Source: Lachnospiraceae bacterium (GTDB lineage: Bacteria > Bacillota > Clostridia > Lachnospirales > Lachnospiraceae). Taken from it: 51,350 nucleotides of DNA. Location of the stretch: assembly GCA_024405155.1 (NCBI GenBank), contig JAKSPC010000010.1, forward strand, positions 1-51,350, written 5' to 3'. The translations under genes were made by a program, and so were the position numbers. Under the pieces are notes generated by a model. That model made no database searches and was not told where the DNA came from. It was given only the letters and a program-made list of their open reading frames with translations. Numbering within the stretch: the first letter of the stretch is position 1; each line of letters starts with the position of its first letter. Positions 7,947-25,661 of this stretch are shown here, piece after piece.

Positions 7947-7966
7947 AATATATTTACCTCTCTCAA

Positions 7967-10018: not shown

Positions 10019-11197
10019 TCAGATGAGGTTCAGCTCAGTCTCGGGATCGAACATGTGGATCAGAGCGGGATCGAATGAGAAGTGGATCTCGCTGCCGTTC
10101 TTAACGGTGTTCAGATCAAGACCAGCGGTGGGAACGATACCGATGATGTCCTGTCCTTCGATGTTCATGTGAAGGTGCATCTCCGGTCCCATCATCTCGG
10201 ATACATCGATACGAGCGGGGAATCCTGCTTCTGCGATATCAAGATGTACCGGACGGATACCTACGATGATCTCCTTGCCATCAGCCCAGCCTGCTTCTGC
10301 CAGCTTCTTGGACTGGTCAGCGGTAAGCTCTACAGCCTTGCCAAGGATCTCAACAGCATACTTCTCGCCGTTCTTCACGAGCTTGCAGTTGTTGAAGAAG
10401 TTCATCTGCGGTGTTCCGATGAAGCCTGCTACGAACAGGTTGTGGGGATGCTGATATACATCCTGGGGAGTACCGATCTGCTGAATGTAACCATCGCGCA
10501 TGATAACGATACGATCGCCAAGGGTCATAGCCTCGGTCTGGTCATGTGTTACATATACGAATGTGGTGGTGATACGCTGGCGAAGCTTGATAAGCTCAGC
10601 TCTCATCTGGTTACGAAGCTTTGCATCGAGGTTTGACAGGGGCTCATCCATCAGAAGAACCTTGGGGTCACGGACGATTGCACGACCGATAGCTACACGC
10701 TGTCTCTGTCCGCCGGAAAGAGCCTTCGGCTTACGATCCAGATATTCGGTGATGCCGAGGATCTCGGCAGCTTCCTTTACCTTCTGGTCGATCTCTTCCT
10801 TGGGGAGCTTTCTGAGCTTCAGTGAGAATGCCATGTTGTCATATACTGACATGTGGGGATAAAGTGCGTAGTTCTGGAATACCATTGCGATATCACGATC
10901 CTTGGGAGCCACGTCGTTTACAAGGCGGTCGCCAATGTAAAGCTCGCCGTCTGAGATCTCCTCAAGACCTGCGATCATACGCAGAGTGGTTGACTTTCCA
11001 CAACCTGAAGGTCCAACGAGAACGATGAACTCACGGTCAGCGATATCCAGTGAGAACTGCTGAACGGCGATAACGCCTTCATCGGTGATCTGAAGATTCA
11101 CTTTCTTCTCTTCCGGAGCATCCTTTGACTTTTTCTTTTTCTTGGTCTCGATGTTCGGATAAACCTTCTTGATGTTAACTAACTTAACACTTGCCAT
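10019..11197 (-). CDS. Sugar ABC transporter ATP-binding protein (MsmK/UgpC/MalK type)
   Basis: 392 residues from ATG 11197. All ATPase motifs are present: Walker A GPSGCGKST, signature LSGGQRQRVAIGRA, Walker B LLMDEPLSNLD and switch His in VTHDQTEAMT. The C-terminal TOBE-like regulatory domain starts after about residue 240. The N-terminus MASVKLVNIKKVYPN matches the family, followed by an unusual Lys/Glu-rich insertion (about residues 15-41) before the nucleotide-binding core. The frame stays open upstream to a GTG at 11287, but the family N-terminus favours the ATG; only a weak ribosome site precedes it. It stands alone between two terminators, without permeases, so it probably energises several sugar importers in trans, possibly including the permease pair at 49287-51015. 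Confidence 0.92.
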   Translation of the reverse strand: MASVKLVNIKKVYPNIETKKKKKSKDAPEEKKVNLQITDEGVIAVQQFSLDIADREFIVLVGPSGCGKSTTLRMIAGLEEISDGELYIGDRLVNDVAPKDRDIAMVFQNYALYPHMSVYDNMAFSLKLRKLPKEEIDQKVKEAAEILGITEYLDRKPKALSGGQRQRVAIGRAIVRDPKVLLMDEPLSNLDAKLRNQMRAELIKLRQRITTTFVYVTHDQTEAMTLGDRIVIMRDGYIQQIGTPQDVYQHPHNLFVAGFIGTPQMNFFNNCKLVKNGEKYAVEILGKAVELTADQSKKLAEAGWADGKEIIVGIRPVHLDIAEAGFPARIDVSEMMGPEMHLHMNIEGQDIIGIVPTAGLDLNTVKNGSEIHFSFDPALIHMFDPETELNLI

Positions 11198-11385
11198 AGT
11201 TACGTGCTGTGATATGCCGGCCTCTGCCAGATCATACCTCATCCCGCCCCGGAAACGTGAGCGGAACATTACGACAGGTCTCCACACTGCCGCACCGCAA
11301 GCAGCGGTAATATCCTCCTTTTTTTCAGTGCGTCACCGTGCTATATGGATGGAGTAGACACGGGCACACCATGGTGTTTCTACTA
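11198..11385 (-). other. Leader of the ABC ATPase gene with palindrome and orphan Shine-Dalgarno
   Basis: Contains the perfect 12-bp palindrome ACACCATGGTGT (11366-11377), flanked by GTAGA/TCTAC arms, and on the minus strand an AAGGAGG motif near 11310 without a standard start codon at the right distance. I see no clear promoter. The palindrome could be an operator; the orphan site could belong to a short leader ORF or be chance. Confidence 0.35.
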
Positions 11386-11418
11386 TACAAAAAAGCGCCT
11401 GTCATTGCAAGCGCTTTT
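11386..11418 (-). terminator. Intrinsic terminator ending the 2-oxoacid/acyl-CoA operon
   Basis: Minus-strand stem AAAAGCGC / GCGCTTTT with a 12-nt loop and six T, about 50 bp after the stop of the TIM-barrel/acyl-CoA synthetase gene. Confidence 0.8.
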
Positions 11419-11470
11419 CTCAATCTTATTCAATATCCACAATTACATCTGCCGGAAATTGGAGAAAACG

Positions 11471-13951
11471 TCAAAGCTCTCCGTTTCTGATCTTTTCCGT
11501 GTACAGTTCCCGCATCTTGTATTTGAGCACCTTTCCCGCCGCGTTCATGGGGAACGCATCCGTCGGTACGATGTACCTGGGTACCTTGTGCCGGGCAAGC
11601 CTCTCCACGGCAAACTTTCTCAGATCTTCCGCCGTCTCTTTGGCATCTTCTCTGAAGATCACCGAAGCAAGGACTTCCTCCCCGTACTTTTCATCGGGAA
11701 CGCCGATGACCTGCACGTCCCTCACTGCCGGGTGGGTATAGAAAAATTCTTCGATCTCTTTGGGATAAATGTTTTCTCCGCCCCGGATGATCATGTCTTT
11801 CAGCCGTCCGGTAATGCGGTAGGTCCCGTCGGAGGCCCGCTGTGCCAGATCTCCGGAATGGAGCCAGCCGTCTTTATCCACGGTCTCTGCCGTGGCTTCC
11901 GGCATCTTGTAATATCCCTTCATGGTATTGTAGCCCCGGGAACAGAATTCTCCGTTCACGCCGTCCGGCACTTCTCTCCCCGTCTCCGGGTCGATGACCT
12001 TGCATTCCACATGGGGGAAAGCATAGCCCACGGTATTGCATCGAAGCTCTAAGTCATCCGTCCAGCTGCTCATGGTGCTTCCCGGCGCGGATTCCGTCTG
12101 TCCGTAAACGCTGACGATGCCCCGCATGTTCATTTCCTTCGGGTCTGCCGCCCGTTTCATGAGTTCCGGCGGGCATCCGGAACCTGCCATGATGCCGGTA
12201 CGCATATGGGAGAAATCGGTACGGGCATAGTTCGGATGGTTGAACATGGCGATAAACATGGTGGGAACGCCGTTGAAGCAGGTGATCTTCTCCTGATCGA
12301 TGCAGGCAAGAGAAGCCTTTGCCGAAAAATACGGCAGCGGACACACCGTGGTGCCGTGAGTCATGGACGCCGTCATGGAAAGCACCATGCCGAAACAGTG
12401 GAACATGGGCACCTGGATCATCATGCGGTCCGCCGTGGAAAGATCCATGCGGTCGCCGATACATTTGCCGTCATTGATCACGTTATAGTGCGTCAGCATG
12501 ACGCCTTTGGGAAATCCGGTGGTCCCGGAAGTATACTGCATATTGCACACGTCGTCCGGGCGGACCGCCGCGGCTCTTCTTCGCACTTCATCCGCCGGCA
12601 CCTTCCGTCCTCTTGTCATGGCTTCCTCAAAGGTAAGGCATCCGGGCTGCCGGAACCCTACGGTGATCACGTTCCGCAAAAAAGGAAGTCTTTTCACGTG
12701 GAGCGGCCTTCCGGGCACGGAAGAAGCGATCTCCGGGCAAAGCTCGTTTACGATGCCCCGGTAATCGGAATCCAGGGCCTTTTCTATCATGATCAGGGTG
12801 TGGGTGTCCGACTGGCGTAAAAGGTATTCCGCCTCATGGATCTTGTAGGCAGTGTTCATGGTCACCAGGACAGCACCGATCTTGGTGGCTGCCCAGAAAG
12901 AAATGAACCACTCCGGCACGTTGGTGGCCCATACCGCCACCTTGCTGCCGGGCTTTACGCCAAGAGAGATCAGTGCCCCGGCGAAGTCATCCACATCCCG
13001 CCGGAACTCCTCGTAGGTCCTGGTATAATCCAGCGTCGTATATTTGAAAGCGTACTGATCGGGAAACTCCTCCACCATGCGGTCCAGCACGCGGGAGAAA
13101 GTAAGATCCACCAGTTCGTCTTTTTTCCAGACGTACTGCCCTGATCCGTCAAAATTCCAATACAGGGACTTTTTCTTTCCCCGGGTATTCTCGAACCGTT
13201 TCATGTAGGTCACGAAATACGGGAAAATGATCTCGCGGTCGGTAAGATCCTCCATCCACTCCGGCTTCCATTCCAGAGAAACGAATCCGTCATAGTCGAT
13301 GGAAGAAAGGGCATTCACGATCTCGCGGATGGGGACGGTCCCCTCTCCGATCAGATTGTAATTCCCGGCGTCGTCGGAGTCTCTTAAGTGCACATGCTTC
13401 ACGTAGGCACCCAGATTGTTGATTGTCTTTCCGGCGCTTTCTCCTGCCTGCCGATACGTATGATGCGCATCCCACAGAGCCCCCAGAGAATCGCTTGCGA
13501 AATCGTCCAGCAGGCGCCTTAACCGTTCGGTGTCCGTATAGACGCCTTTTGTCTTTATCAGTATCATTACCGACCGCTTTTCCGCTTCCGGAAGAAGAAC
13601 TCCCAGCCTTTCGCGGACGGTACTGTCTTTGTCAAAGTTGCAGGTCACGGCAACGGAGGGGCACTGGGCATCTTCCGCGTACGCCAGAAGCGCCAGAAGC
13701 TCCTCGGTGGGATCTTCTGCCGAAAGGTCGCAGGAAGTGTCCATACAGGGGATGGAAAGCTTTGCATCCTTCAGTTTCCTTACGGTGGAAGCCACCCTGT
13801 ATCTGTCAAATGCGGCTCCTTTGCCGATGAGGTCCGGCCGTCTCAGCAGATTGTAGATCTCGATACCCTCGAAATGCATACGGTCCGCCGTTTCGATAAG
13901 GCTCTCGAAATCCATGTCGGCCCAGCCTCTTGTGGAGAAGGACAGTCTCAT
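11471..13951 (-). CDS. Fusion of a sugar-phosphate-isomerase-like TIM barrel and an acyl-CoA synthetase
   Basis: 826 residues. Residues about 1-255 resemble the xylose-isomerase-like/AP endonuclease 2 TIM barrel (start MRLSFSTRGW, LWDAHHTYR, VKHVHLRD, FVSLEWKPEW). Residues about 285-826 are a complete ANL-family acyl-CoA synthetase: P-loop TSGTTGFPKG near 473, YGQTE near 614, GRLKDMIIRGGENIYP near 712, and the catalytic Lys in AAGKVLKYK near 808. It should adenylate a carboxylic acid and load it on CoA; the barrel may isomerise, epimerise or sense a related compound. Start ATG 13951 follows GAGGAGG and lies 1 bp after the LeuA-like stop. A single reading frame crosses the join at about 265, so this is a real fusion. 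It is the last gene of the operon. Confidence 0.88.
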   Translation of the reverse strand: MRLSFSTRGWADMDFESLIETADRMHFEGIEIYNLLRRPDLIGKGAAFDRYRVASTVRKLKDAKLSIPCMDTSCDLSAEDPTEELLALLAYAEDAQCPSVAVTCNFDKDSTVRERLGVLLPEAEKRSVMILIKTKGVYTDTERLRRLLDDFASDSLGALWDAHHTYRQAGESAGKTINNLGAYVKHVHLRDSDDAGNYNLIGEGTVPIREIVNALSSIDYDGFVSLEWKPEWMEDLTDREIIFPYFVTYMKRFENTRGKKKSLYWNFDGSGQYVWKKDELVDLTFSRVLDRMVEEFPDQYAFKYTTLDYTRTYEEFRRDVDDFAGALISLGVKPGSKVAVWATNVPEWFISFWAATKIGAVLVTMNTAYKIHEAEYLLRQSDTHTLIMIEKALDSDYRGIVNELCPEIASSVPGRPLHVKRLPFLRNVITVGFRQPGCLTFEEAMTRGRKVPADEVRRRAAAVRPDDVCNMQYTSGTTGFPKGVMLTHYNVINDGKCIGDRMDLSTADRMMIQVPMFHCFGMVLSMTASMTHGTTVCPLPYFSAKASLACIDQEKITCFNGVPTMFIAMFNHPNYARTDFSHMRTGIMAGSGCPPELMKRAADPKEMNMRGIVSVYGQTESAPGSTMSSWTDDLELRCNTVGYAFPHVECKVIDPETGREVPDGVNGEFCSRGYNTMKGYYKMPEATAETVDKDGWLHSGDLAQRASDGTYRITGRLKDMIIRGGENIYPKEIEEFFYTHPAVRDVQVIGVPDEKYGEEVLASVIFREDAKETAEDLRKFAVERLARHKVPRYIVPTDAFPMNAAGKVLKYKMRELYTEKIRNGEL

Positions 13952-13952
13952 C

Positions 13953-15377
13953 TCATGCCTCCTCGTAGGTGATCTTGTTTAACGCATTCAGGTATGCCAG
14001 CACGGCAGACCCGATGATATCCGTGGAAATGCCTCTGCCGGGATAGATCTTCCCGCCGGAGATAAGCTTCACCACGGTCTCGCCCATGGCCTCATGGCCT
14101 TCCGTCACGGCACGGATCTGAAAATCGTCCAGCACGTAATGATGACCCGTGATCTGCTCGATGGCAAGATATGCCGCGTCGATGGGACCGTCTCCCAGGG
14201 CCATCCCTTCACAGAGCGTCCCGTTCTTTCTAAGGCGTATGTGTGCCATGCAGGTGATCTGGCTGCCGATGTTGATCACATAGGTATCCAGTTCGTATGT
14301 GGCGGGCACCTGCATCGCCTGAGCTGCCACGATGGCATCCAGTTCCGCCGGTCCCACTTTTTCCTTCTTGGAAGCAATGCTGCTGATGGCAGTCATCACG
14401 CTGTCCATGTCTTCATCGGACAGATCATAGCCCAGAGAGGCAACGGCACGGCGCACTTCCTCCCTGTCCGCATCCGCGTCCAGTTCCACCCGTTCCTTTA
14501 TCAGAACGCTCTCCGCTCCCACCCCGTCATCAAAGGGGGAGTTCTTGCTGTGCACGGCCTCGCAGATGGCATTCACCCGCTCCAGCACCCGTTTCATCTC
14601 CACAGTGCGGATACCGCAGCACACGCCGCATTCTTCACCTTTTGTTTCCAGGATCTTGGCTATGTGAGAAAGCGCCGGGCAGTCCACGGGATGAGCCGCC
14701 GCTTTCACTTCGGAAGCACCGGCATTCACTGCCGCCATGGACAGGGCTGCCGCCATGTTCAGTTTATCGGAACAGCACACGCCAAGGGAGATGTTCCGCA
14801 AAGCCGGAACGTTTTCAAAAATATCGCTGATGAACTGTTCCATTTCTCCGGGAAGCATGGTCCCCGCGTCGTCGCAGAGCGTTACCGCAGACGCTCCCGC
14901 CTCCACTGCCGCCGCTATGATCCCCGATAAAAAGGACCGTTCACTGCGGGTGGCGTCCAGAGCCACGAATTCCACGTCATCCGTGTATTCCCGGCACATT
15001 TCCATGATACGGGAGGAAAGCTCCATGACCTTGTCCGGCTTTTTGTGCAGCAGATATTCCATCTGCACGGCACTGGTGGGCACTTTCACCTGCAGGCGGA
15101 TGCGGGCGAGACCTTTTACGGTCTCTCCCACCTGCCTTACATTTTCTTCTGAAAGTTCCACCGGAACGGCAGCCACCGCGTTTTTAAGCGTTGACGCGAT
15201 GGATTTTATGCGCAGGGAATCTGTCCTGAGCTGTCGGATCCCCTCCAGCTCCAGAACATCCACGTGGAGACGGTCGATCTGTGCCGCAAGATCGATCCTG
15301 TCCTTGAAAGACAGGCTGTACTCGCGGGCGTTCGCCGCCTGGATCATGGTGATATCACTCACTTTTACCTTACGCAT
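13953..15377 (-). CDS. LeuA-like protein with degenerate catalytic barrel and intact regulatory domain
   Basis: 474 residues from ATG 15377, which has GGAGG 5 nt upstream; the frame extends to a TTG at 15389 that overlaps this ribosome site. The order is that of 2-isopropylmalate/homocitrate synthase: TIM barrel (about 1-270), linker, and a LeuA allosteric domain (about 370-474; ALGDGPIDAAY, GRGISTDIIGSAVLAY). Where active enzymes have DTTLRDGEQ this protein reads DITMIQAAN (residues 8-16), losing the catalytic Arg and metal Asp. Where they have HCHND it reads VCCSD, losing both His ligands. It is therefore unlikely to be a normal metal-dependent Claisen condensing enzyme. It might be a regulator, a scaffold or a new activity. 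It lies between the LeuDH-like gene (24 bp upstream) and the TIM/acyl-CoA synthetase gene (1 bp). Confidence 0.85.
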   Translation of the reverse strand: MRKVKVSDITMIQAANAREYSLSFKDRIDLAAQIDRLHVDVLELEGIRQLRTDSLRIKSIASTLKNAVAAVPVELSEENVRQVGETVKGLARIRLQVKVPTSAVQMEYLLHKKPDKVMELSSRIMEMCREYTDDVEFVALDATRSERSFLSGIIAAAVEAGASAVTLCDDAGTMLPGEMEQFISDIFENVPALRNISLGVCCSDKLNMAAALSMAAVNAGASEVKAAAHPVDCPALSHIAKILETKGEECGVCCGIRTVEMKRVLERVNAICEAVHSKNSPFDDGVGAESVLIKERVELDADADREEVRRAVASLGYDLSDEDMDSVMTAISSIASKKEKVGPAELDAIVAAQAMQVPATYELDTYVINIGSQITCMAHIRLRKNGTLCEGMALGDGPIDAAYLAIEQITGHHYVLDDFQIRAVTEGHEAMGETVVKLISGGKIYPGRGISTDIIGSAVLAYLNALNKITYEEA

Positions 15378-15401
15378 AACTGCCTCCAAAACTCAAGTCT
15401 C

Positions 15402-16445
15402 TTATCTCAGTCCGAAACGGATCCTGCTTTCTGCAAGCTTCTGAGCGATCTCTCCCTCCGGGATACCGGTCTGCTCGGATTCTTCCATGATCTCGGTCAG
15501 AGTGTTGTAAATGTTCTCGACCTGCTTTAACACGTTCTCCTTGTTGTAGGTGGTGAAAGCTTCCTGTGCCGCATTGATCACGCCGCCGCCGTTGATGATG
15601 AAGTCGGGAGCGTAAACGATGCCCTTGCCGCAGAGGATCCTGCCGCACTCGTCATCATACAGCTGGTTGTTGGCTGCGCCGGCAATGGCACGGCACTTAA
15701 GCTGCGGAAGGGTGTGCTTGTTGATGGTGCCGCCCAGAGCACAGGGAGAAAGGATATCGCACTCGAAGCCGTAGATCTCGTCTTCGGAGATCTCCTTTGC
15801 GCCCCATTCCCTGGTAGCGATCTCCATGTTCTTTCTGTTGGAGTGGGTGGATACGTAAAGGTCTGCGCCTGCCTCTGCCAGCTGGTGAGCCAGATCGAAA
15901 CCTACGTGACCAAGTCCCTGCAGAGCAATCTTTACGCCGTGAAGGTCATCGGTACCGTTCAGCTTGTGTGCCACGGCCTTGATGCCGCAGAAGCAGCCGT
16001 ATGCGGTGAACGGTGAAGGATCGCCGCTGACGGTCTCACGTCCTACCACGTACTGCGTCTTGTGCATTACCTGGTTCATGTCGTCGGTGGTGGTATTTAC
16101 ATCCTCAGCGGTGAAATACTTGCCCTGCATGCTCTCTACTGCCTCGCCGAATGCCTCGAACAGAGCTTCGGTCTTTGCTGCCGGTGATGCGATGATGACG
16201 CCCTTTGCACCGCCGCAGGGAAGTCCTGCTGCCGCGTTCTTGAAGCTCATGCCTCTGGAAAGGCGGAGCACGTCAAACAGCGCGTCATCCAGAGACTGGT
16301 AGGGGTACAGTCTGCATCCGCCGACTGCCGGTCCCAGCTTCGTGTTGTGGATTGCGATGATGGCATGAAGTCCTGCCTTCTCATTGTTGAAGAAGCATAC
16401 CTTCTCATGTCCGAACTCACCAATCATGTCTAATGTCGTTCCCAT
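15402..16445 (-). CDS. Leucine/valine/phenylalanine dehydrogenase-like amino-acid dehydrogenase
   Basis: 347 residues from ATG 16445, with AAGGAGG 6 nt upstream. It belongs to the Glu/Leu/Phe/Val dehydrogenase family. The substrate and catalytic lysines align as Lys69 (MSFKNAAAGL) and Lys81 (GGAKGVI), matching Lys68 and Lys80 of leucine dehydrogenase. The NAD site is GLGHVG. It interconverts a branched or aromatic amino acid with its 2-oxoacid. The start lies inside the last 29 bp of the oxidoreductase gamma gene, so the two are translationally coupled. Context with a 2-oxoacid:ferredoxin oxidoreductase and CoA ligases makes the shared intermediate a branched or aryl 2-oxoacid; which one is not shown by sequence. 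Confidence 0.88.
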   Translation of the reverse strand: MGTTLDMIGEFGHEKVCFFNNEKAGLHAIIAIHNTKLGPAVGGCRLYPYQSLDDALFDVLRLSRGMSFKNAAAGLPCGGAKGVIIASPAAKTEALFEAFGEAVESMQGKYFTAEDVNTTTDDMNQVMHKTQYVVGRETVSGDPSPFTAYGCFCGIKAVAHKLNGTDDLHGVKIALQGLGHVGFDLAHQLAEAGADLYVSTHSNRKNMEIATREWGAKEISEDEIYGFECDILSPCALGGTINKHTLPQLKCRAIAGAANNQLYDDECGRILCGKGIVYAPDFIINGGGVINAAQEAFTTYNKENVLKQVENIYNTLTEIMEESEQTGIPEGEIAQKLAESRIRFGLR

Positions 16446-16995
16446 AACTGTCCTCCTTGACTTCATAGTCCAGTCCTGCACGGACTGCCTTATAGTTGGC
16501 ATCGAAAAGGTTTGCCTTGGAAGCGGGGATCACCTTTTTCAGTGCCTCAACAATGGTTTCTTCCTTTATGCATTTCGTCTGCCGGATGATCGAACCGATA
16601 AGGATCATGTTGGCAAGTCCGCTGATGCCCATTTCGTCTGCCATCTTTGTGGCAGGCACGTAAATGCCGTAGATATCGTCCCGGACGATCTTCCGGGTCA
16701 CCAGCGTGGAATCCACGAAGGCACGTCCGCCGATGTATACGGAGTTTTCATATCTGTCCAGTGACGGTCCGTTCATCACCATGAGCACATTGGGCTTGCT
16801 CACGATGGGAGAACCGATGGGACCGTCACTTAAGATCACGTTGCAGTTGGCGGTGCCGCCGCGCATCTCGGGGCCGTAGGAAGGGAGCCAGCTCACCTCA
16901 CGGTTCTCCAGAAGCCCGGCATACGCCAGAAACTTACCCGCAAAGAGAAGCCCCTGTCCGCCGAAACCTGCGATCACAAATCCATAGTCCAGCAT
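16417..16995 (-). CDS. korC: 2-oxoacid:ferredoxin oxidoreductase, gamma subunit
   Basis: 192 residues, typical of a separate gamma chain. The N-terminus has AGFGGQGLLFAGK and PSYGPEMRGGTANC, the hallmark of the CoA-interacting gamma domain in Kor/Vor enzymes. AAGGAGG lies 7 nt before ATG 16995. It follows the beta gene by 12 bp and overlaps the start of the dehydrogenase gene by 29 bp. With alpha, beta and the ferredoxin-like delta it should form a four-subunit enzyme joining 2-oxoacid oxidation to ferredoxin reduction and acyl-CoA formation, reversibly. Confidence 0.92.
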   Translation of the reverse strand: MLDYGFVIAGFGGQGLLFAGKFLAYAGLLENREVSWLPSYGPEMRGGTANCNVILSDGPIGSPIVSKPNVLMVMNGPSLDRYENSVYIGGRAFVDSTLVTRKIVRDDIYGIYVPATKMADEMGISGLANMILIGSIIRQTKCIKEETIVEALKKVIPASKANLFDANYKAVRAGLDYEVKEDSYGNDIRHDW

Positions 16996-17007
16996 TGTTT
17001 CTCCTCC

Positions 17008-17760
17008 TTACCTGTTTTCCTGATCCGCAGATCTGTCCTTGTAGACACCCAGCGGATAATACGGGATCATGGCGTCATCGATCCACTTTAAGGCGTCCTT
17101 CGGTGTCTTTCCCCAGTTGGTGGGGCAGGCGCTTAAGACTTCCACCAGAGAGAATCCCTTGCCGTCGATCTGATTCTGGAAGGCTTTCTTGATCGCCTTC
17201 TTTGCCTCACGGACCCTGGCCACGTTGTTTACGGTAACGCGGGCAAGATACTCCGGTCCCTCCAGCTGAGAAAGCATCTCGCAGATCTTTACGGGATAGC
17301 CGCAAAGCTTGGGATCTCTGCCATAGGGAGAGGTCTGGGTCACCTGTCCCACCAGGGACGTGGGAGCCATCTGGCCGCCGGTCATGCCGTAAATGGCATT
17401 GTTGATGAAGATCACGGTGATGTTTTCGTTTCTGGTGGCTGCGTGTACCGTCTCGGCGGTGCCGATGGAAGCCAGATCACCGTCACCCTGATAGGTGAAC
17501 ACGATCTTTGAGGGATCTGCCCTCTTCACACCGGTGGCAACGGCCGGTGCTCTTCCGTGAGCAGCTTCGATCACGTCGCAGCCGAAATAGTCATACGCCA
17601 TGACGGAACATCCCACCGGAGCGATACCGATGGTCTTTCCTTCGATCTCCAGTTCGTCCAGGCATTCCGCCACCAGTCTGTGAACGATACCGTGGGTGCA
17701 TCCGGGACAGTAATGAAGCGGAACGTCTAAAAGTGCATGCGGTCTTTCAAATACTACCAT
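17008..17760 (-). CDS. korB: 2-oxoacid:ferredoxin oxidoreductase, beta subunit (TPP-binding)
   Basis: 250 residues. CPGCTHG near residue 19 and GCSVMAYDYFG precede the thiamine diphosphate/Mg motif GDGDLASIG (about residue 91) with NNAIYGMTGGQ. The conserved Cys residues are consistent with binding of the catalytic-chain iron-sulfur cluster. GGGAGG precedes ATG 17760 by 9 nt, and the gene overlaps the alpha gene by 7 bp, so expression is coupled. It holds the active site for decarboxylation. Features alone do not separate 2-oxoglutarate from 2-oxoisovalerate or aryl-pyruvate enzymes; the neighbouring LeuDH-like gene favours branched or aryl substrates. Confidence 0.93.
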   Translation of the reverse strand: MVVFERPHALLDVPLHYCPGCTHGIVHRLVAECLDELEIEGKTIGIAPVGCSVMAYDYFGCDVIEAAHGRAPAVATGVKRADPSKIVFTYQGDGDLASIGTAETVHAATRNENITVIFINNAIYGMTGGQMAPTSLVGQVTQTSPYGRDPKLCGYPVKICEMLSQLEGPEYLARVTVNNVARVREAKKAIKKAFQNQIDGKGFSLVEVLSACPTNWGKTPKDALKWIDDAMIPYYPLGVYKDRSADQENR

Positions 17761-18824
17761 GGAATCTCACCTCCCTGTGATGCTTCTACGATCTCTCTCA
17801 ATACTCTTTCCGATGAAGGGATCATGCCGCCTGCACGGTTGCACTTCTCCACCGGGATCCTGCACTTTGTGGCAAGGAGCACGTCTTCCACCATCTGACC
17901 CATGGAAAGCTCCACGGTGATGATGGCCTTCGTCTTTCCCACCAGCTTTGCAAAGTTTGCCTTGGGGAAGGGCCAAAGGGTAATAGGACGGATCAGTCCT
18001 GCCTTGATGCCCTGTCTTCTTGCTTCATCCACGGCATTCTTGGATACTCTTGCCGCGATGCCGAATGCCGCTACCACCACGTCCGCGTCTTCCGTCAGAT
18101 ACTCTTCGCAGAGAGGCTCTTCCTTCTCCACCTGCGCGTAACGGTCGAACCGGGCAAAGTTCTGTCTTTCCAGTTCCTCCGGCTGAAGGCACAGAGAGTT
18201 TACGATGTTGTGGGGGCGTCTCAGTTCCGTTCCGGTGGTCGCCCAGGGCTTTTCCGGTGCCGGTGCGATGTCAAAATCAAAAGTCACGGGCTCCATGACC
18301 TGACCGATGGTACCATCCGCCAGGATCATGGCCGGCATGCGCCACTTGTCCGCAAGGTCAAAGGCCTTTACGGTAAGCGCTGCCATTTCCTGTACGGAAG
18401 CGGGAGCCAGCACCAGGATGTGATAATCACCGTGTCCGCCGCCTCTCGTAGCCTGGAAATAATCCGACTGGCTGGGCTGGATACCGCCAAGTCCCGGACC
18501 GCCGCGCTGTGCGTTCACGATGACTGCCGGCAGATCGGATCCCGCCAGATAGGAGATCCCTTCACTCTTTAAGGAAATTCCCGGGCTGGAGGAAGAGGTC
18601 ATGACTCTTTTGCCGGCGGAAGCCGCGCCGTATACCATGTTGATGGCCGCGATCTCGCTCTCCGCCTGCAGGAAGGTACCGCCGATCTTTGGCATTCTTT
18701 TTGCCATATATGCGGCGATCTCCGTCTGCGGGGTGATGGGGTAGCCGAAATAATGCCTGCAGCCCGCCGTGATGGCAGCCTCGGCAATGGCTTCGTTACC
18801 CTTCATTAGTACTTTTTCAGACAT
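17754..18824 (-). CDS. korA: 2-oxoacid:ferredoxin oxidoreductase, alpha subunit
   Basis: 356 residues with the pyrimidine-binding domain of the PFOR superfamily: KGNEAIAEAAITAGCRHYFGYPITPQ at the N-terminus in split form (GNEAIAEAA, YPITPQTE), QAESEIAAINMVYGA, and SSSPGISLKSEG. The C-terminal domain includes RPITLWPFP. It pairs with the beta subunit to complete the TPP site. ATG 18824 lies 7 bp after the ferredoxin-like delta gene. This is the usual delta-alpha-beta-gamma order of Kor/Vor operons. Confidence 0.93.
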   Translation of the reverse strand: MSEKVLMKGNEAIAEAAITAGCRHYFGYPITPQTEIAAYMAKRMPKIGGTFLQAESEIAAINMVYGAASAGKRVMTSSSSPGISLKSEGISYLAGSDLPAVIVNAQRGGPGLGGIQPSQSDYFQATRGGGHGDYHILVLAPASVQEMAALTVKAFDLADKWRMPAMILADGTIGQVMEPVTFDFDIAPAPEKPWATTGTELRRPHNIVNSLCLQPEELERQNFARFDRYAQVEKEEPLCEEYLTEDADVVVAAFGIAARVSKNAVDEARRQGIKAGLIRPITLWPFPKANFAKLVGKTKAIITVELSMGQMVEDVLLATKCRIPVEKCNRAGGMIPSSERVLREIVEASQGGEIPW

Positions 18825-18831
18825 ACACTAC

Positions 18832-19044
18832 CTACCTTTCCACGGTTATGATGCAATCCGGACACATGATGGCGCAGGATGCGCATCCCACGCAGGAAGC
18901 GTCCGCACCTTCTTTCAGTTGTGCCGGGTGATGGCCTTTCCGGTTGATCTTGTCTTTGGCGATCTCCAGAAGGTCTTTGGGACAGGCGTCCACGCACAGG
19001 CCGCAGCCTTTGCAGCTGTCGGTCTTGAATGTCAGTTTTGCCAT
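18832..19044 (-). CDS. korD: 2[4Fe-4S] ferredoxin-like delta subunit of the oxidoreductase
   Basis: 70 residues with two CxxCxxCxxxC-type clusters: CKGCGLCVDACP at the N-terminus and CVGCASCAIMCP at the C-terminus, joined by a short loop. This is the electron-transfer chain of the complex, passing electrons to soluble ferredoxin. AAGGAG lies 9 nt before ATG 19044. It is directly downstream of the structured hairpin repeat (19085-19187), which therefore forms part of its leader if transcription comes from the upstream genes. Confidence 0.93.
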   Translation of the reverse strand: MAKLTFKTDSCKGCGLCVDACPKDLLEIAKDKINRKGHHPAQLKEGADASCVGCASCAIMCPDCIITVER

Positions 19045-19084
19045 GTATCCACTCTCCTTTGCTTTTTCATTTTATTGTGTTTAC

Positions 19085-19187
19085 GCGCGGGTGGTACCAT
19101 GCTTCGGTGAGTGTTCGCAGCTTCAAACAGTTCTCGCTTCGCTGCGAAACTCGCTGCGAAGCACTCACGCTCGCAATCCACCCGCGC
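19085..19187. repeat. Structured hairpin repeat, copy 2
   Basis: Stem GCGCGGGTGG (19085-19094) pairs with 19178-19187. GTGAGTGTTCGCAGC (19107-19121) pairs with 19153-19168, with one bulged G as in copy 1. Internal loops TACC and CGCAAT are conserved. Compared with copy 1 at 9860-9953, at least four stem positions change on both sides and keep pairing. It lies between the P-loop ATPase stop and the ferredoxin gene. Confidence 0.75.
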
Positions 19188-19193
19188 TGTGTT

Positions 19194-19856
19194 TCACATA
19201 TCGAACGGCTTTTTCTGCAAATGGATGCAGGTCACGCCTTCGCCCTTCATGGCCTCGTATATCGGAGGATATACGGTGGTGGCGGCGATGGGCAGGCCGG
19301 TCTTTTCCGAGATTCTGTCCGCGTAGGCGAAGGAAGCGCGCACGTCATCCGGTGTGGTTTCGGGACCCAGGTTCGAGTTGTTTATGATGGCCGTAAACGG
19401 GATGCCGCAGGCGTTTTCGATCTCGGCCTTCACTTCCAGCACGGAATCCGCATCCGGTGTCAGCGGGCGATACATGTTTATCACCATAAACATGTCGTAA
19501 TTGTTTTCCCGAAGAATGGCCGGTGCCAGTCTTCCGAGAGCCAGCGCCCCTCTCTCATCACCGCCCACGTCCAGCACGGCCTGTATCCTCTGATCGTCCG
19601 TGATCGCGTAGATCTCCTGGGGAAGTGCCGGCAGGTCCACGTTGGATCCCGCGTAGGGAGAACAGATCAGTCGGATTCCCTTTTCTTCCAGTTCAGTTTT
19701 GCTGTCGCTGGTCCGGTAATAGGGATTTACGATGTCCAGATCGGCGATGACCACATTTTCACAGGTCTTTTTCAGTTCCTCCGCAAAGCAGATGGCCGCG
19801 TTGGTCTTTCCGCTGCCGTAATGTCCGCAGAAAATGCTGATCCTCTTATGTTCCAT
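19194..19856 (-). CDS. P-loop ATPase of the MinD/CobQ type linked to the oxidoreductase
   Basis: About 220 residues. The N-terminal nucleotide site is GHYGSGKTN, followed by VVIADLDIVNPYYRTSD (switch I-like) and VLDVGGDERGA (Walker B/switch II-like). This resembles SIMIBI-class ATPases that mature or load metalloenzymes, but no metal-binding motif is obvious. An in-frame GTG lies directly before ATG 19856; the ATG has better spacing from AGGAGG. It follows the XRE-cupin-acyl-CoA synthetase by 8 bp and precedes the ferredoxin/oxidoreductase genes, suggesting a role in assembling or controlling that enzyme. The role is inferred only from position. Confidence 0.75.
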   Translation of the reverse strand: MEHKRISIFCGHYGSGKTNAAICFAEELKKTCENVVIADLDIVNPYYRTSDSKTELEEKGIRLICSPYAGSNVDLPALPQEIYAITDDQRIQAVLDVGGDERGALALGRLAPAILRENNYDMFMVINMYRPLTPDADSVLEVKAEIENACGIPFTAIINNSNLGPETTPDDVRASFAYADRISEKTGLPIAATTVYPPIYEAMKGEGVTCIHLQKKPFDM

Positions 19857-19864
19857 CACGCCTC

Positions 19865-22156
19865 CTACAAAAGGTTCCGCTGGATCTTCCCGCTGGCAGT
19901 CTTGGGAAGGCTTTCCTTAAACACCACGATACGCGGGTATTTGTAGGGCGCGGTATGCTCTTTGACATATTCCTGAACTTCTTTTACCAGAGCGTCGCCG
20001 GGCTCCGTTCCCTTCACCAGAACGATGCTGGCCTTTACCACCTGGCCTCTTACCTCGTCGGGCGCTGCGGAAACGCCGCACTCCAGCACATAGGGAAGCT
20101 CCATGATAACGTTCTCGATCTCAAACGGTCCGATGCGGTAGCCGGAAGACTTGATCACGTCATCGGCACGGCCCACGTACCAGTAGAAATCATCCTCATC
20201 CTTCCAGGCAAGGTCTCCGGTATGATAATAGCCGTTGCGGAACGCGTAAGCGTTTTCTTCCGCGTCTTCGTAGTATCCCGTGGTAAGGCCGCAGGGAGAT
20301 CCCTTGGAAAGATCGATGGCGATCTCGCCCACTTCGCCGGCTTCCACCGGATGATCGTCCTTATCCATAAGCACCACATCGTAGATAGGCGCGGCTTTTC
20401 CCATGGACCCGATCTTTGTCTGCACACCGGCAAGGTTTCCGATGATCATGGTGCTTTCGGACTGACCGAAACCATCGTAAATGCTTAATCCCGTGGCATC
20501 CTTGAACTTCCGGAACACTTCCGGATTCAGTGCCTCGCCTGCCGTAGTCACTCTCTTTACAGAGGAGAAATCGTACTTTGAAAGATCCTGCTTGATCATC
20601 ATGCGCAGCATGGTGGGCGGTGCGCACAGGGTAGTGATGTGGTATTTCGCGATCATGGGAAGGATCCGTGCCGCGTCGAACCGGTCGAAATCGTACACGA
20701 ACGTGGCTGCTTCCGAGATCCACTGCCCGAAAAGCTTTCCCCACAGAGCCTTGGCCCAGCCGGTCTCCGAAATGGTGAAGTGGAGCCCGTCGGGATCCAC
20801 CGAGTGCCAGTACCTGGCCGTATGGAAATGTCCCAGCGCGTACTTGTAGTTGTGCATGGTAAGCTTGGGATATCCCGATGTGCCCGAGGTAAAGAACATG
20901 AGCATGGTGTCGTCGCCGCCGGGAGAATTCTCTTTTCTTGCAAAATGGGAACTGTACATGGCGTATTCCGTGTTGAAATCGCGCCATCCTTCCCTTTCTC
21001 CGTTCACCAGCATCTTAATAAGGGGCTTTTCGTACGTCTGCTCCGCGATCTCCACCTGTTCCGCAATGTCTCCGTCTGCCGAGCAGATCACGGCAGAAAC
21101 ACCGGCCTTCCGGAAACGGTATGAAAAGTCGTGGGCCAGAAGCTGACTGGTAGCCGGAATGGCAATGGCGCCGATCTTGTTGAGCCCCAGCATGGCGAAC
21201 CAGAACTGGTAATGCCGCTTGAGGCTTAAGATCACCCGGTCACCCTTTTTAATGCCGATGGACGTGAAATAGTTGGCGCATCTTGCCGACTCATGATACA
21301 TGTCATGGAACGTGAACTTCTTTTCCTCATCCTTTTCGGAAACATAGACCATGGCAAGTTTATTCTTGTCTTTCTCCGCAATGGCGTCCACGATATCAAA
21401 GGCAAAGTTGAAATGTTCCGTGTTCTTGAAAGTGATGGACGTGGGGACACCCTTTTCGTTTTCCGACACATCGATGAAATTCCGGTAGATTCTGCTTTCC
21501 GTATCCCTCTTTGCCGGAGCGGATTCCTCCACAGTCACCGGCATGTTGAGCTCCGGAATGGGCTCTCCTTCAGGATTTAATACGATGGCATAAAAGATGC
21601 AGTCTTTTCCGCTTACGGCGATCATGCCGTGAGGCGTGCGGCTGTTGTAGTAAATGCTGTCCCCGGGGCCCAGAACTTCCTGATGCGCACCGATCTGGAC
21701 CTTCAGATAGCCGTCCACCACGATGTCGCATTCCTGTCCGGCGTGGCTGGTCACCTCGATGGGCTTGAGCTCCGCCTGGGGATCATAATGGCAGCGCACG
21801 TAGAGCGGTTCCGCGATCCTGTTCTGGAACGCGTCCGCCATGTTGTAGTAGGTCATGCCGTGGGCCTGGGACACTCTCTGTCCCGCACCTGCCCTGGTCA
21901 GATCGTAAGAGCGAAGTCTGGGGGCATCGCCCTCGATGAGTTCGGTCACGTCTACCTTAAGGATCCCTGCGCAGCGGTAGATGATGGTGAAGTTCATGTC
22001 ATGCCTGCCTGCTTCGCAGTCCTGATACTCCGCCTCACTTAAACCCACAGCCGCTGCCATTTCACTGACCGTAAGGTGTTCCAGTTCCCGAAGCTCCCGG
22101 ATACGGGCGCCCATCTCTTTTATTTTATCGTCGATTCCTGTCTGAATGTTTTCCAT
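19865..22156 (-). CDS. XRE-cupin-acyl-CoA synthetase fusion, paralog 1
   Basis: 763 residues in three parts. Residues about 14-70 are an XRE-type helix-turn-helix (IRELRELEHLTVSEMAAAVG). Residues about 120-190 are a cupin (SHAGQECDIVVDGYLKV and PGDSIYYNSRTPHG). From about 230 to the end is an ANL acyl-CoA synthetase with P-loop TSGTSGYPK (about 420), GFGQSE (about 560) and the catalytic Lys in TASGKIQRN at the C-terminus. A single chain thus has a predicted DNA-binding domain, a small-molecule sensor fold and a complete acid-activating enzyme. The domain order XRE-cupin is common in regulators; the enzyme fusion is not. It lies 27 bp downstream of a paralog of the same architecture. Its acid substrate is unknown. 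Confidence 0.9.
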   Translation of the reverse strand: MENIQTGIDDKIKEMGARIRELRELEHLTVSEMAAAVGLSEAEYQDCEAGRHDMNFTIIYRCAGILKVDVTELIEGDAPRLRSYDLTRAGAGQRVSQAHGMTYYNMADAFQNRIAEPLYVRCHYDPQAELKPIEVTSHAGQECDIVVDGYLKVQIGAHQEVLGPGDSIYYNSRTPHGMIAVSGKDCIFYAIVLNPEGEPIPELNMPVTVEESAPAKRDTESRIYRNFIDVSENEKGVPTSITFKNTEHFNFAFDIVDAIAEKDKNKLAMVYVSEKDEEKKFTFHDMYHESARCANYFTSIGIKKGDRVILSLKRHYQFWFAMLGLNKIGAIAIPATSQLLAHDFSYRFRKAGVSAVICSADGDIAEQVEIAEQTYEKPLIKMLVNGEREGWRDFNTEYAMYSSHFARKENSPGGDDTMLMFFTSGTSGYPKLTMHNYKYALGHFHTARYWHSVDPDGLHFTISETGWAKALWGKLFGQWISEAATFVYDFDRFDAARILPMIAKYHITTLCAPPTMLRMMIKQDLSKYDFSSVKRVTTAGEALNPEVFRKFKDATGLSIYDGFGQSESTMIIGNLAGVQTKIGSMGKAAPIYDVVLMDKDDHPVEAGEVGEIAIDLSKGSPCGLTTGYYEDAEENAYAFRNGYYHTGDLAWKDEDDFYWYVGRADDVIKSSGYRIGPFEIENVIMELPYVLECGVSAAPDEVRGQVVKASIVLVKGTEPGDALVKEVQEYVKEHTAPYKYPRIVVFKESLPKTASGKIQRNLL

Positions 22157-22183
22157 GCCTGTCTCTTCTGTATGTAAATATGA

Positions 22184-24442
22184 TCAAAGCCTGTTTCTCT
22201 GGATCTTTCCGCTGATGGTCTTGGGGAGGCTCTCCTTGAAGACAACGATACGCGGATACTTATAGGGTGCCGTATGCTCCTTAACGTAGGACTGGATCTC
22301 TTTTACCAGTGCCTCGGAAGGTGTGTAGCCTTTTACCAGAACGATGCTGGCCTTTACCACCTGCCCGCGGACGGGGTCCGGTTCCGGCGATACGCCGCAC
22401 TCCAGAACGTAAGGAAGCTCCATAATGACATTTTCGATCTCGAAAGGCCCGATGCGGTATCCGGAAGACTTGATCACGTCGTCCACACGGCCCACGTACC
22501 AGTAGAAATCGTCCTCGTCCCGGTAAGCCAGGTCACCGGTGTGGTAGAACCCGTCGTGCCATGCTTCCTTGGTGCTGTCCGCATTGTTGTAATAACCCTT
22601 GAAAAGTCCGCAGGGAACACCGTCTTTCGTGCTGACCACGATCTCGCCCGGTTCGCCGTCGGGAACGGGTTCGCCGTCCGCGTCCAGAAGGGAAATGTTG
22701 TAAAGCGGAGAAGCTTTTCCCATGGAGCCGATCTTGATCACGTCGCCGATCAGGTTGCCGATGCCAAGCGTCATCTCCGTCTGGCCGTAACCCTCTGCGA
22801 TGTGAAGCCCCGTTGCTTCCAGGAACTTCTTGTAGACCTCCGGATTCAATGCTTCGCCGGCCGTCGTCATATGACGGATGGAGGACAGATCGTACTTTGA
22901 CAGATCGCCGCGGATCAGCATGCGGAGCATGGTGGGCGGCGCGCAGAATGTGGTAATGTTGTATTTTGCGAACATGGGAAGGATCCTGTCCGCATCGAAC
23001 TTGTTGAAATCATAGACGAAGACCGCGCTCTCGCAGAGCCACTGACCGTAGAGCTTGCCCCAAAGGGACTTGCCCCATCCCGTCTCGGAGATGGTGAAGT
23101 GCAGACCGTCGTCGGTGACGCCGTGCCAGTACTTGGCGGTGATATAGTGACCCAGAGCATACTTGTAGGAATGCTCGGCGATCTTGGGATATCCGGAAGT
23201 TCCGGAGGTAAAGAACATGATCATGGTATCGTCGCCGCAGGCGGAATTTTCGGAACGATAGAAATGAGCACTGTACATGGACATTTCCTCGTCGAAATTG
23301 TGCCAGCCTTCGCGGGTGCCGTTCACGATGATCTTATTTTCCAGTGTCTGAGCGGTTTCGTTGGCCTTCTCCACTTCTTCCGCCACGTCACCGTCCGCGG
23401 TGCAGACGATGGCTGTTACACCGGCCGAGGTGAACCGGTATTCAAAGTCATGTTTTTTCAGCTGATTGGTAGCCGGAATGGCAATGGCGCCCAGCTTGTG
23501 CAGACCAAGGATGGCCACCCAGAACTGATAGTGGCGCTTAAGGACCAGCATTACCCTGTCGCCTTTTCTGATGCCCAGGGACTTGAAGTAGTTTGCCGCC
23601 TGATTGGAGGCACGTTTCAGATCCTTAAAGGTAAATCTCCGCTCCGTACCGTCATCCGAAATGTGCAGCATGGCCAGCTTGTCCGGGGATTTCTTCGCAA
23701 TGGCATCCACGATGTCGAAAGCAAAGTTGAAAGTATCCTCATTGGTAAAGGAGATGCTCTCCAGAAGTCCTTCTTCGTTCTCCGTGGTATGAATGAATTT
23801 CGAGCAGACGTAGTTCTTTTCCTCCTCGTGGCTGCGGCCCAGAAGAGTATTTCTGACAACGGTCTCTGACTGATCTTCGCCGGGAAGGACCACTGCCAGG
23901 AACAGACAGTCGGCGCCGTCCACGGCGATCATGCCGTGAGGCGTGGAACTGTTGTAGTATATGCTGTCGCCTTCGCTCAAGTATTCAACGTTGTCGCCTA
24001 CCTGCACCTTGAGACGGCCCTGCATGACGTAGTCGAATTCCTGACCGCTGTGCTTGGTCATGTGGATGGGAGCGTCCTGCAGCCTGGGATCGTACTCGTA
24101 ACGTACCCAGTAGGGCTCGGATATCTTCTGGCGGAACATGGGGGCCAGGTTTCTGATCTCAATGCCCTCTTCCTTTGCCGTGGCCTGTCCTTCGCCCTTT
24201 CTGGTCACCGTATAGGAAGAAAGACGGGCACTGCGGCCTTCCAGCAGATCGCTCATACCTACGCCGAAGGCCAGGGAACACTTGTGAATGAAGGTGAACG
24301 GGAAGTCCAGCTGTCCCGCTTCATACTTCACATAATCTTCCGTGCTGACTTCCGTCTTCTGCGCCATCTGCTCCACGGTAAAGTCCATGATGAGACGCAT
24401 TTCCCGGATACGAGCCGCGATGTCCTGCAGTTGATTTTCCAT
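22184..24442 (-). CDS. XRE-cupin-acyl-CoA synthetase fusion, paralog 2
   Basis: 752 residues from ATG 24442, which follows GGGGGATT; an in-frame TTG at 24454 overlaps the ribosome site and is not preferred. The architecture equals paralog 1: XRE domain (IREMRLIMDFTVEQMAQKTE), cupin (KHSGQEFDYVMQGRLKV; EGDSIYYNSSTPHG), then the acyl-CoA synthetase (TSGTSGYPK, GYGQTE, TISGKIQRN). The synthetase halves are much alike; the XRE and linker regions have diverged more, so the two may bind different DNA sites or acids. It is the first gene of the long minus-strand locus. Its leader contains a large inverted structure (24466-24614). No clear promoter was found between it and the upstream terminator. 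Confidence 0.9.
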   Translation of the reverse strand: MENQLQDIAARIREMRLIMDFTVEQMAQKTEVSTEDYVKYEAGQLDFPFTFIHKCSLAFGVGMSDLLEGRSARLSSYTVTRKGEGQATAKEEGIEIRNLAPMFRQKISEPYWVRYEYDPRLQDAPIHMTKHSGQEFDYVMQGRLKVQVGDNVEYLSEGDSIYYNSSTPHGMIAVDGADCLFLAVVLPGEDQSETVVRNTLLGRSHEEEKNYVCSKFIHTTENEEGLLESISFTNEDTFNFAFDIVDAIAKKSPDKLAMLHISDDGTERRFTFKDLKRASNQAANYFKSLGIRKGDRVMLVLKRHYQFWVAILGLHKLGAIAIPATNQLKKHDFEYRFTSAGVTAIVCTADGDVAEEVEKANETAQTLENKIIVNGTREGWHNFDEEMSMYSAHFYRSENSACGDDTMIMFFTSGTSGYPKIAEHSYKYALGHYITAKYWHGVTDDGLHFTISETGWGKSLWGKLYGQWLCESAVFVYDFNKFDADRILPMFAKYNITTFCAPPTMLRMLIRGDLSKYDLSSIRHMTTAGEALNPEVYKKFLEATGLHIAEGYGQTEMTLGIGNLIGDVIKIGSMGKASPLYNISLLDADGEPVPDGEPGEIVVSTKDGVPCGLFKGYYNNADSTKEAWHDGFYHTGDLAYRDEDDFYWYVGRVDDVIKSSGYRIGPFEIENVIMELPYVLECGVSPEPDPVRGQVVKASIVLVKGYTPSEALVKEIQSYVKEHTAPYKYPRIVVFKESLPKTISGKIQRNRL

Positions 24443-24856: not shown

Positions 24857-25654
24857 TTATGCAAAATTTTGTCTGTCGTAATCCTTCCATAACATTTCAT
24901 CCACCGGGGCATCGTCTCGACAGAGATTCTGGTCTGTCCTTCCTTCGATGTAATGAAGCAGCCGGCAGATCTCCCGGCTCTCGCACACCTTTGCCACGGC
25001 ATTTCCGACCGGGTATTCCCTCTGCAGTCCGAAATGAAGGAAGATCGGCTCAAATTTGGGATAATAGACGGAGATCGGACACGCATGCCGTCTGACCTGA
25101 GTCATATGTTCGTCCCCGTTTTCATCGATCACCGGAATGTCACGAAGATCTTCCGTAAGACGCTCCGGAACGTCGATCATTTCCTCGATGCCGTGGATCA
25201 TGGTGTTTCTGTCATGCCCCACGCCCAGAAGAAACATCTTCGCGTTCCGCGCAAGGAGTTTTCCGGTGATGCCAGCGGGATCCGCCGGAGATGACGCGTT
25301 CAGTTCCCCATCCACGAAGGAACGGGCATCCTTCCCGAAGGCGGCCACGGAATGTGTGGGATGCAGAGAACGCACGCCGTCTTTCCGGAAAGCCGCGATC
25401 TGAGACACGATCCCGGTACACGGCACGGAGGAACGCACGTCAAACACCGGTTCCGTTCTCGGAACGGTATGCCACGTATGGGTGGGGATCACAAGAAGCC
25501 CGTCCGAAAGCACGTCCCGAAAAGCATCGATCAGCGTATCCGCTCCGCCTTCCACCGGTCCCACGGCTCTCATGGAAGTATGAAGCATCACGGTATCGTC
25601 ATTCCTGATCCCTGCAGTTCTTATCTGCGCTGCCAGTTCTTCCTTTGTATACAT
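24857..25654 (-). CDS. AAC(3)-family aminoglycoside N-acetyltransferase-like protein
   Basis: 265 residues from ATG 25654 (family-type start MYTKEELAAQI); the frame extends 12 codons upstream into the preceding gene without a better start. Family motifs include VMLHTSMRAVG, the HPTHSVAAFG stretch with the conserved His, and LLGVGHDRNTMIHGIEE. The fold transfers acetyl from acetyl-CoA to an amino group. Many AAC(3)-like proteins outside resistance islands have other amine substrates. It is 7 bp after a beta-helix gene and last in the glycerate kinase/beta-helix operon, so an amino-sugar or sugar-amine substrate is more likely than a clinical aminoglycoside. This is inference from context. Confidence 0.82.
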   Translation of the reverse strand: MYTKEELAAQIRTAGIRNDDTVMLHTSMRAVGPVEGGADTLIDAFRDVLSDGLLVIPTHTWHTVPRTEPVFDVRSSVPCTGIVSQIAAFRKDGVRSLHPTHSVAAFGKDARSFVDGELNASSPADPAGITGKLLARNAKMFLLGVGHDRNTMIHGIEEMIDVPERLTEDLRDIPVIDENGDEHMTQVRRHACPISVYYPKFEPIFLHFGLQREYPVGNAVAKVCESREICRLLHYIEGRTDQNLCRDDAPVDEMLWKDYDRQNFA

Positions 25655-25661
25655 TTCCCTG

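Follow-up and report, generated by a model that had tools for sequence, protein, structure and literature searches.

A conserved operon of gut Firmicutes predicted to make valine, isoleucine and leucine from branched short-chain acids

Rumen bacteria convert isovalerate to leucine, isobutyrate to valine and 2-methylbutyrate to isoleucine (PMC7356843), rumen methanogens carry out the same isoacid-to-amino-acid conversions (PMC10658910), and the use of isoacids for amino acids in the rumen has been known since the 1960s (work cited in PMC7356843). Here we describe a ten-gene operon in a stretch of 51,350 nucleotides (the window, meaning the whole stretch analysed) from a Lachnospiraceae bacterium (GenBank assembly GCA_024405155.1, contig JAKSPC010000010.1, positions 1 to 51,350, forward strand), and propose that it performs these same three conversions. 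The operon is very probably biosynthetic, with isobutyrate, 2-methylbutyrate and isovalerate being taken up from the gut as the starting acids for valine, isoleucine and leucine. Whereas the accessible parts of the reports on the rumen isoacid synthesis studied by Allison and co-workers describe the physiology without a gene cluster (PMC7356843, PMC10658910), the present locus is an operon with a ligase for each amino acid, T-box leaders in its relatives, and XRE-cupin domains fused to ligases.

Two further systems are close to parts of this locus. Clusters encoding VOR- or IOR-type 2-oxoacid:ferredoxin oxidoreductases often include Pta and a kinase, or an ADP-forming ligase, and a 2026 study argued that the AMP-forming arylacetate-CoA ligase beside the Bacteroides IOR indicates biosynthesis (PMC13285125). 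Our locus shares with that cluster the adjacency of an AMP-forming ligase and a 2-oxoacid:ferredoxin oxidoreductase, but the Bacteroides cluster is described for aryl acids and an IOR, whereas the present genes point to branched acids and a VOR and include three ligases and an aminating enzyme. MbcS of Staphylococcus aureus is a ligase that prefers 2-methylbutyrate and isobutyrate, uses isovalerate poorly and serves lipid synthesis (PMC10026030). It is the best NCBIfam model for the ligases L1 and L2 of our operon (431.6 and 444.2 bits), which reach about half of its cut-off of 850 and are therefore not members of the MbcS equivalog, though they may work alike; unlike MbcS, both carry an XRE-cupin part. 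The chemistry proposed here is already known. The open-access literature that we searched yielded no description of this gene cluster, and we did not find in print the gene set, the logic of one ligase per amino acid with T-boxes, the sensor fusions or the re-used LeuA. The operon comprises the following features.

L1: 22184 to 24442, minus strand; weak XRE part, cupin and AMP-forming acyl-CoA ligase (Pfam AMP-binding, Cupin_2)
L2: 19865 to 22156, minus strand; XRE, cupin and AMP-forming acyl-CoA ligase (Pfam HTH_31, Cupin_2, AMP-binding)
PL: 19194 to 19859, minus strand; P-loop NTPase, member of the conserved core
FD: 18832 to 19044, minus strand; ferredoxin-like subunit of 70 amino acids with 4Fe-4S motifs (Fer4 matches)
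KA: 17754 to 18824, minus strand; VorB-type alpha subunit of a 2-oxoacid:ferredoxin oxidoreductase (NCBIfam PRK07119 VorB, 537 bits, cut-off 399)
KB: 17008 to 17760, minus strand; beta subunit binding thiamine pyrophosphate (TPP_enzyme_C; PorB/KorB-like, under the cut-offs)
KC: 16417 to 16995, minus strand; gamma subunit (POR, 118.3 bits)
DH: 15402 to 16445, minus strand; leucine dehydrogenase-like (start codon picked by eye)
LA: 13953 to 15377, minus strand; LeuA-like pseudo-enzyme (HMGL-like and LeuA_dimer)
TL: 11471 to 13951, minus strand; xylose-isomerase-like TIM barrel and AMP-forming acyl-CoA ligase (AP_endonuc_2 and AMP-binding)
Probable terminator: about 11385 to 11420, minus strand; hairpin and T run after TL

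The gene content and order given in the original prediction, which was made from the sequence alone, were recovered in full, with all ten genes codirectional on the minus strand from 24442 to 11471. Adjoining genes are separated by −29 to +27 bp, with the exception of a 149 bp gap between PL and FD, and we infer that they are cotranscribed. The terminator expected to close the operon folds at −17.1 kcal/mol, although a pattern-based terminator scan did not list this hairpin at about 11420 to 11385. The proposed fusion of XRE and cupin domains to ligases stood for L2, the only protein with an XRE domain above the Pfam cut-off (HTH_31, 31.9 bits, cut-off 27; HTH_3, 24.6 bits, cut-off 23), whereas the XRE part of L1 is a weak match (HTH_19, E 3e-4, 21.1 bits, cut-off 30.2). 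DH was likewise labelled correctly as leucine dehydrogenase-like, in that leucine dehydrogenases are its nearest solved structures (E 1.5e-99), followed by tryptophan (5e-91) and phenylalanine dehydrogenases (1.7e-55); its best NCBIfam model is the Trp dehydrogenase ScyB, at a score under the cut-off.

To place the operon among its relatives, we scanned for L2 in one genome per species, kept the best 80 of at least 588 loci, and took locus counts from the tblastn layout of the genes. The kept relatives are metagenome-assembled or uncultured Firmicutes, often from ruminant or horse gut, and include Clostridia, Lachnospiraceae, Oscillospiraceae, Ruminococcaceae, Christensenella, Blautia, Solobacterium and other Erysipelotrichaceae. 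A lack of conservation of the gene set had been named beforehand as grounds for refuting the prediction, and the seven-gene core L1-L2-PL-FD-KA-KB-KC proved complete in 59 of the 80 loci, with several of the others stopping at contig edges. The gene order of the operon is therefore not due to chance. Full-length matches share 66–75% (L1), 67–71% (L2), 70–78% (KA), 74–89% (KB), 50–61% (KC) and 44–63% (PL) identity with the window, and the XRE-cupin parts of L1 and L2 are conserved among the relatives. LA and TL lie side by side in 38 of the 80 loci, and the pair may be downstream, upstream or on the opposite strand. An amidohydrolase-like gene (labelled by eye; a representative had no NCBIfam match) was also observed in 17 of the 80 loci (L018–L097), in 15 of them after TL.

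The gene that follows the core differs between the window and most relatives. A branched-chain aminotransferase (BCAT) is present in 51 of the 80 loci, immediately downstream of KC in 44 and behind L2 in seven, and the one representative that we scanned exceeds the NCBIfam ilvE_II cut-off. A DH homologue occurs in one of the 80 loci, and in the window DH occupies the place after KC where most relatives carry BCAT. DH of the window is thus a replacement of BCAT by an unrelated enzyme for the same step, and this exchange suggests that the pathway runs through branched 2-oxoacids.

The acids served by the individual ligases were assigned from leader sequences. Reading frames upstream of LA in the relatives spelled a T-box antiterminator, and a pattern search of 102 loci (the 80 relatives plus 22 loci of the window's family) located T-boxes upstream of L1 in 72, of L2 in 69 and of LA in 38. 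Within the 80 loci, T-boxes precede 61 of 67 L1 genes, 68 of 80 L2 genes and 34 of 40 LA genes, and 29 loci have all three. The specifier codon was read by its place beside the closing pairs of the specifier loop, with a script that requires the AG-bulge first. Every readable L1 leader specifies isoleucine (ATC, 71 of 71), every readable L2 leader valine (68 of 68; GTA in 61, GTC in seven) and all 38 LA leaders leucine (CTC or CTG), 32 of the latter being read by the script and six by eye (L074, L083, L088, L089, L068 and L082); a relaxed script agrees for five of these six and read none for L082. Two leaders, in L087 and L096, are unreadable because they are cut by contig ends. The specifiers indicate that L1 leaders respond to isoleucine, L2 leaders to valine and LA leaders to leucine.

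Ten leaders also passed the Rfam T-box threshold. Three of them lie before LA in L011, L012 and L013 (three of the eight loci given); the other seven, before L1, L2 or LA, come from five of another six loci. We checked the script on 12 T-boxes from two genomes, the operon itself contributing three. It gave the expected amino acid before pheT and pheS (Phe), thrS (Thr), alaS (Ala) and MetI (Met) but misread the T-box before TrpX (AAT); two T-boxes had no partner that could be judged and one was left unparsed. The partner names include three fragments that score under their cut-offs. A T-box read as isoleucine (ATC) was also observed before a CstA-like membrane protein (labelled by eye) in L183 of genome G117.

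By orthology with the genes behind these leaders, we assign L1 to a predicted isoleucine branch (2-methylbutyrate) and L2 to a predicted valine branch (isobutyrate), while TL is assigned to a putative leucine branch (isovalerate) on the basis of its adjacency to LA and the leucine T-boxes before LA. A separate ligase for isovalerate would be expected, since MbcS uses this acid poorly (PMC10026030). As L1, L2 and the LA-TL pair each stand behind their own T-box in most relatives, each branch would be switched on at a shortage of its own amino acid.

The genomes that carry the operon have largely lost the de novo pathway for which it would stand in. In the window's genome, estimated to be 93% complete, we found no IlvC, IlvD or LeuB, no class IV aminotransferase at all, and no LeuA_dimer protein besides LA and hence no genuine LeuA. 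Genome G117 of the same genus, which lacks the fusion, encodes IlvC, IlvD and LeuB. The XRE-cupin part matched 18 of 397 genomes sampled from the family, and the fusion set was reduced to 17 by dropping G097 (a 256-amino-acid frame without ligase), with G260 (a 639-amino-acid frame cut by a contig end) being kept. IlvC is absent from 15 of these 17 genomes compared with 21 of the 380 others (Fisher p 1.2e-15), and among genomes at least 90% complete from 13 of 14 with the fusion compared with eight of 306 without it. For 40 of the 80 loci, 39 of which contain KA, the source genomes were also examined, and 37 of these 40 genomes lack IlvC. VorB (E 1e-40) was detected in 12 of 13 fusion genomes compared with one of nine others. 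The LA-TL pair follows its own pattern. Genomes G115 and G081 combine it with IlvC and IlvD but have neither LeuB nor another LeuA, the pattern that a pair dedicated to leucine alone would give. The pair is not restricted to genomes without LeuB, since G136, G147 and G148 hold both.

Based on these results, we propose a pathway of three steps. An AMP-forming ligase for each acid would form the acyl-CoA (L2 from isobutyrate, L1 from 2-methylbutyrate, TL from isovalerate). All three ligases have AMP-binding domains, and their substrates are predicted from T-box orthology and similarity to MbcS. The four-subunit VOR-type enzyme FD-KA-KB-KC, of which KA scores above the VorB cut-off and the other subunits are recognised by domain, would then reductively carboxylate the acyl-CoA to the 2-oxoacid with reduced ferredoxin. 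Finally, DH, or BCAT in most relatives, would convert the 2-oxoacid to the amino acid, an assignment made by homology to leucine dehydrogenase and ilvE_II. The route would replace the lost IlvC/IlvD and LeuAB steps. The linkage from acid through acyl-CoA and 2-oxoacid to amino acid, offered in the original prediction as one pathway, is strongly supported, and of the four acids suggested there the evidence favours the three branched ones, while no sign of phenylacetate was found.

The direction of this pathway had been left open. Synthesis is favoured by the AMP-forming ligases, the isoleucine, valine and leucine T-boxes of the relatives and the loss of de novo branched-chain amino acid synthesis. 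The same enzymes could in principle run an oxidative, Stickland-like fermentation, in which leucine dehydrogenase deaminates branched-chain amino acids, VOR oxidises the 2-oxoacids and the ligases free the acids with energy gain. The reactions of VOR and of leucine dehydrogenase or BCAT are reversible, as is established for these families, amino acid fermenters may likewise lose branched-chain amino acid synthesis, and C. difficile and C. sporogenes run VOR in this way, with a kinase (PMC13285125). However, the ligases of the operon belong to the AMP-forming family, and the ten window genes include no Pta, kinase or ADP-forming ligase (the flanks of the relatives were not scanned for these). 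The T-boxes of the relatives, moreover, respond to amino acid shortage, and the fusions co-occur with the absence of IlvC. We consider the fermentative direction improbable.

A supply of lipid precursors, with the ligases making FabH primers for branched-chain membrane lipids and VOR serving as a side route, has still less in its favour. The similarity of L1 and L2 to MbcS, which has this function in S. aureus (PMC10026030), would fit such a role, but VOR, the BCAT or leucine dehydrogenase, the three amino acid T-boxes of the relatives and the loss of IlvC, IlvD and LeuB would be left unexplained, and we regard it as very unlikely as the purpose of the operon. The acyl-CoAs may also be used as lipid primers. 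Least probable of all is the salvage of phenylacetate and indoleacetate to phenylalanine and tryptophan, a role suggested for the Bacteroides IOR cluster, since, although the best NCBIfam model of DH is a Trp dehydrogenase (under its cut-off) and VOR may take arylpyruvates promiscuously (PMC13285125), the readable specifiers are all Ile, Val or Leu, the aminotransferase at the place of DH is of the ilvE_II type, and leucine dehydrogenase structures outscore those of tryptophan dehydrogenases.

Several observations weigh against synthesis from isoacids as the function of the operon. The window itself has no T-box in its operon region, nor has its genome, and the branch assignments in the window therefore rest on orthology; a T-box-like string in the PL-FD gap was rejected as a window T-box, as no Rfam T-box match at E ≤ 1 was obtained between 9000 and 27000 and none genome-wide. 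T-boxes are also missing from some of the L1, L2 and LA genes of the 80 loci, as counted above, and many leaders of the relatives fall under the Rfam threshold, with none passing in L143, and the leaders before L1 and L2 in L020 being a further example. KB, KC, DH and the ligases all score under the cut-offs of their best equivalog models. L2 stands alone in eight of the 80 loci, and 11 of the 17 fusion genomes of the family have no VOR gene in the stretch around the fusion; three of these (G251, G260 and G395) stop at contig ends and the other eight are lone fusions. VorB was found elsewhere in the genome for those fusion genomes with a VOR-less locus that were tested, except G400. The absence of IlvC is itself qualified, since many of the 40 genomes are small metagenome bins without completeness figures, in which some absences may be gaps, and since IlvC is retained in three of the 40 genomes and in two of the 17 fusion genomes, so that the isoacid route can be an addition to the de novo pathway. 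G115 has no VorB at E 1e-40 and no LeuB, so that its leucine supply is not explained by the route; nor does the route explain why G229, G039, G174, G351 and G395 keep a LeuA_dimer protein of 556–580 amino acids without LeuB or IlvC.

The lone fusions without VOR alongside occur in G160, G096, G092, G039, G400, G351, G174 and G269 (loci L132, L136–L142 and L144), most of them with an isoleucine T-box. An IlvB-like gene (labelled by eye) follows the fusion in G039 and G395 despite the absence of IlvC.

The feeding of isoacids to cattle rests on their use for amino acids in the rumen. The operon offers a gene-level basis for isoacid use in many gut Firmicutes, with acids paired to ligases through the T-boxes, and its presence would mark gut bacteria that may rely on isoacids from protein-fermenting neighbours.

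The absence of catalytic residues from LA, noted in the original prediction, holds in the window and in 45 relatives. The reference for aligning these 46 sequences was a LeuA of genome G020 in which the three motifs DTTLRDGEQ, HxH and GERAGN, which we take to be catalytic, are all present. None of the 46 retains the catalytic Asp of DTTLRDGEQ, three retain the catalytic Arg, one keeps the first His of HxH and none the second, and Glu-Arg-Ala of GERAGN is deleted throughout. In contrast, the LeuA_dimer domain is better kept than the barrel (mean pairwise identity 66% versus 45%) and is matched as well in LA of the window (98–99 bits) as in the normal-size LeuA of G117 (95 bits). LA therefore resembles 2-isopropylmalate synthase (LeuA) in having the same two Pfam domains, and differs from it in lacking the catalytic Asp, the second metal-binding His and the GERAGN loop, and in its position, which is nearly always beside TL. 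The 30 best-scoring LeuA_dimer loci (104–120 bits) are all LA, at 36–51% identity over at least 455 residues, and 29 of them have a TL match, one of which is weak (L152, 40% over 347 residues).

LA is most likely a leucine sensor for the putative isovalerate branch, as suggested by its dead barrel, the conserved leucine-type domain, the neighbouring TL and the leucine T-boxes of the relatives. Parts of the barrel, for example Asp141 and Met-Glu-Tyr 106–108, are also conserved, and the barrel may still bind a ligand. LA would thus clearly exemplify a biosynthetic enzyme that has lost catalysis but kept its regulatory domain intact. The self-regulation suggested in the original prediction stays hypothetical, as the regulators legible in the relatives are T-box leaders, of which the window copy carries none. 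More tentatively, LA could act as a leucine-sensing allosteric partner of TL and the XRE-cupin parts of L1 and L2 could sense the acid or the product and tune the ligase or the operon, a combination that we think possible but somewhat doubtful; if true, the feedback formerly exerted on LeuA would act on a wholly different pathway to leucine. The XRE-cupin part of L2 gave no match to solved structures better than E 0.016. PL carries the Walker-A-like motif GHYGSGKTN, nearly invariant in 35 sequences, and showed weak similarity to MinD/ParA/Mrp, with no family above threshold in Pfam, NCBIfam or further profile scans.

A Clostridiales-1-like RNA before L1 (24466 to 24614, minus strand; 34.8 bits, threshold 48) was considered as a regulator and set aside, being of a multi-copy family. 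Loci L129, L130 and L132 gave no match to it at E ≤ 0.5. At E ≤ 0.1, Clostridiales-1 matches number eight in G000 (the weak one of the window not among them), nine in G366, 17 in G075, two in G251, one in G274 and none in G117; in G075, two copies lie in tandem between the L1 and L2 genes.

Outside the operon, an AAC(3) acetyltransferase-type protein is encoded at 24857 to 25690 on the minus strand (99 bits, cut-off 420). A malK-I RNA (RF03069, 117 bits, threshold 60.3) lies directly after the operon at 11192 to 11372 on the minus strand, where a MalK/UgpC-like ABC ATPase gene (10019 to about 11197) begins. Two genes past the operon, at 6582 to 9637 on the minus strand, a dihydrolipoyl dehydrogenase and an E2 acyltransferase with two lipoyl domains were recognised by eye.

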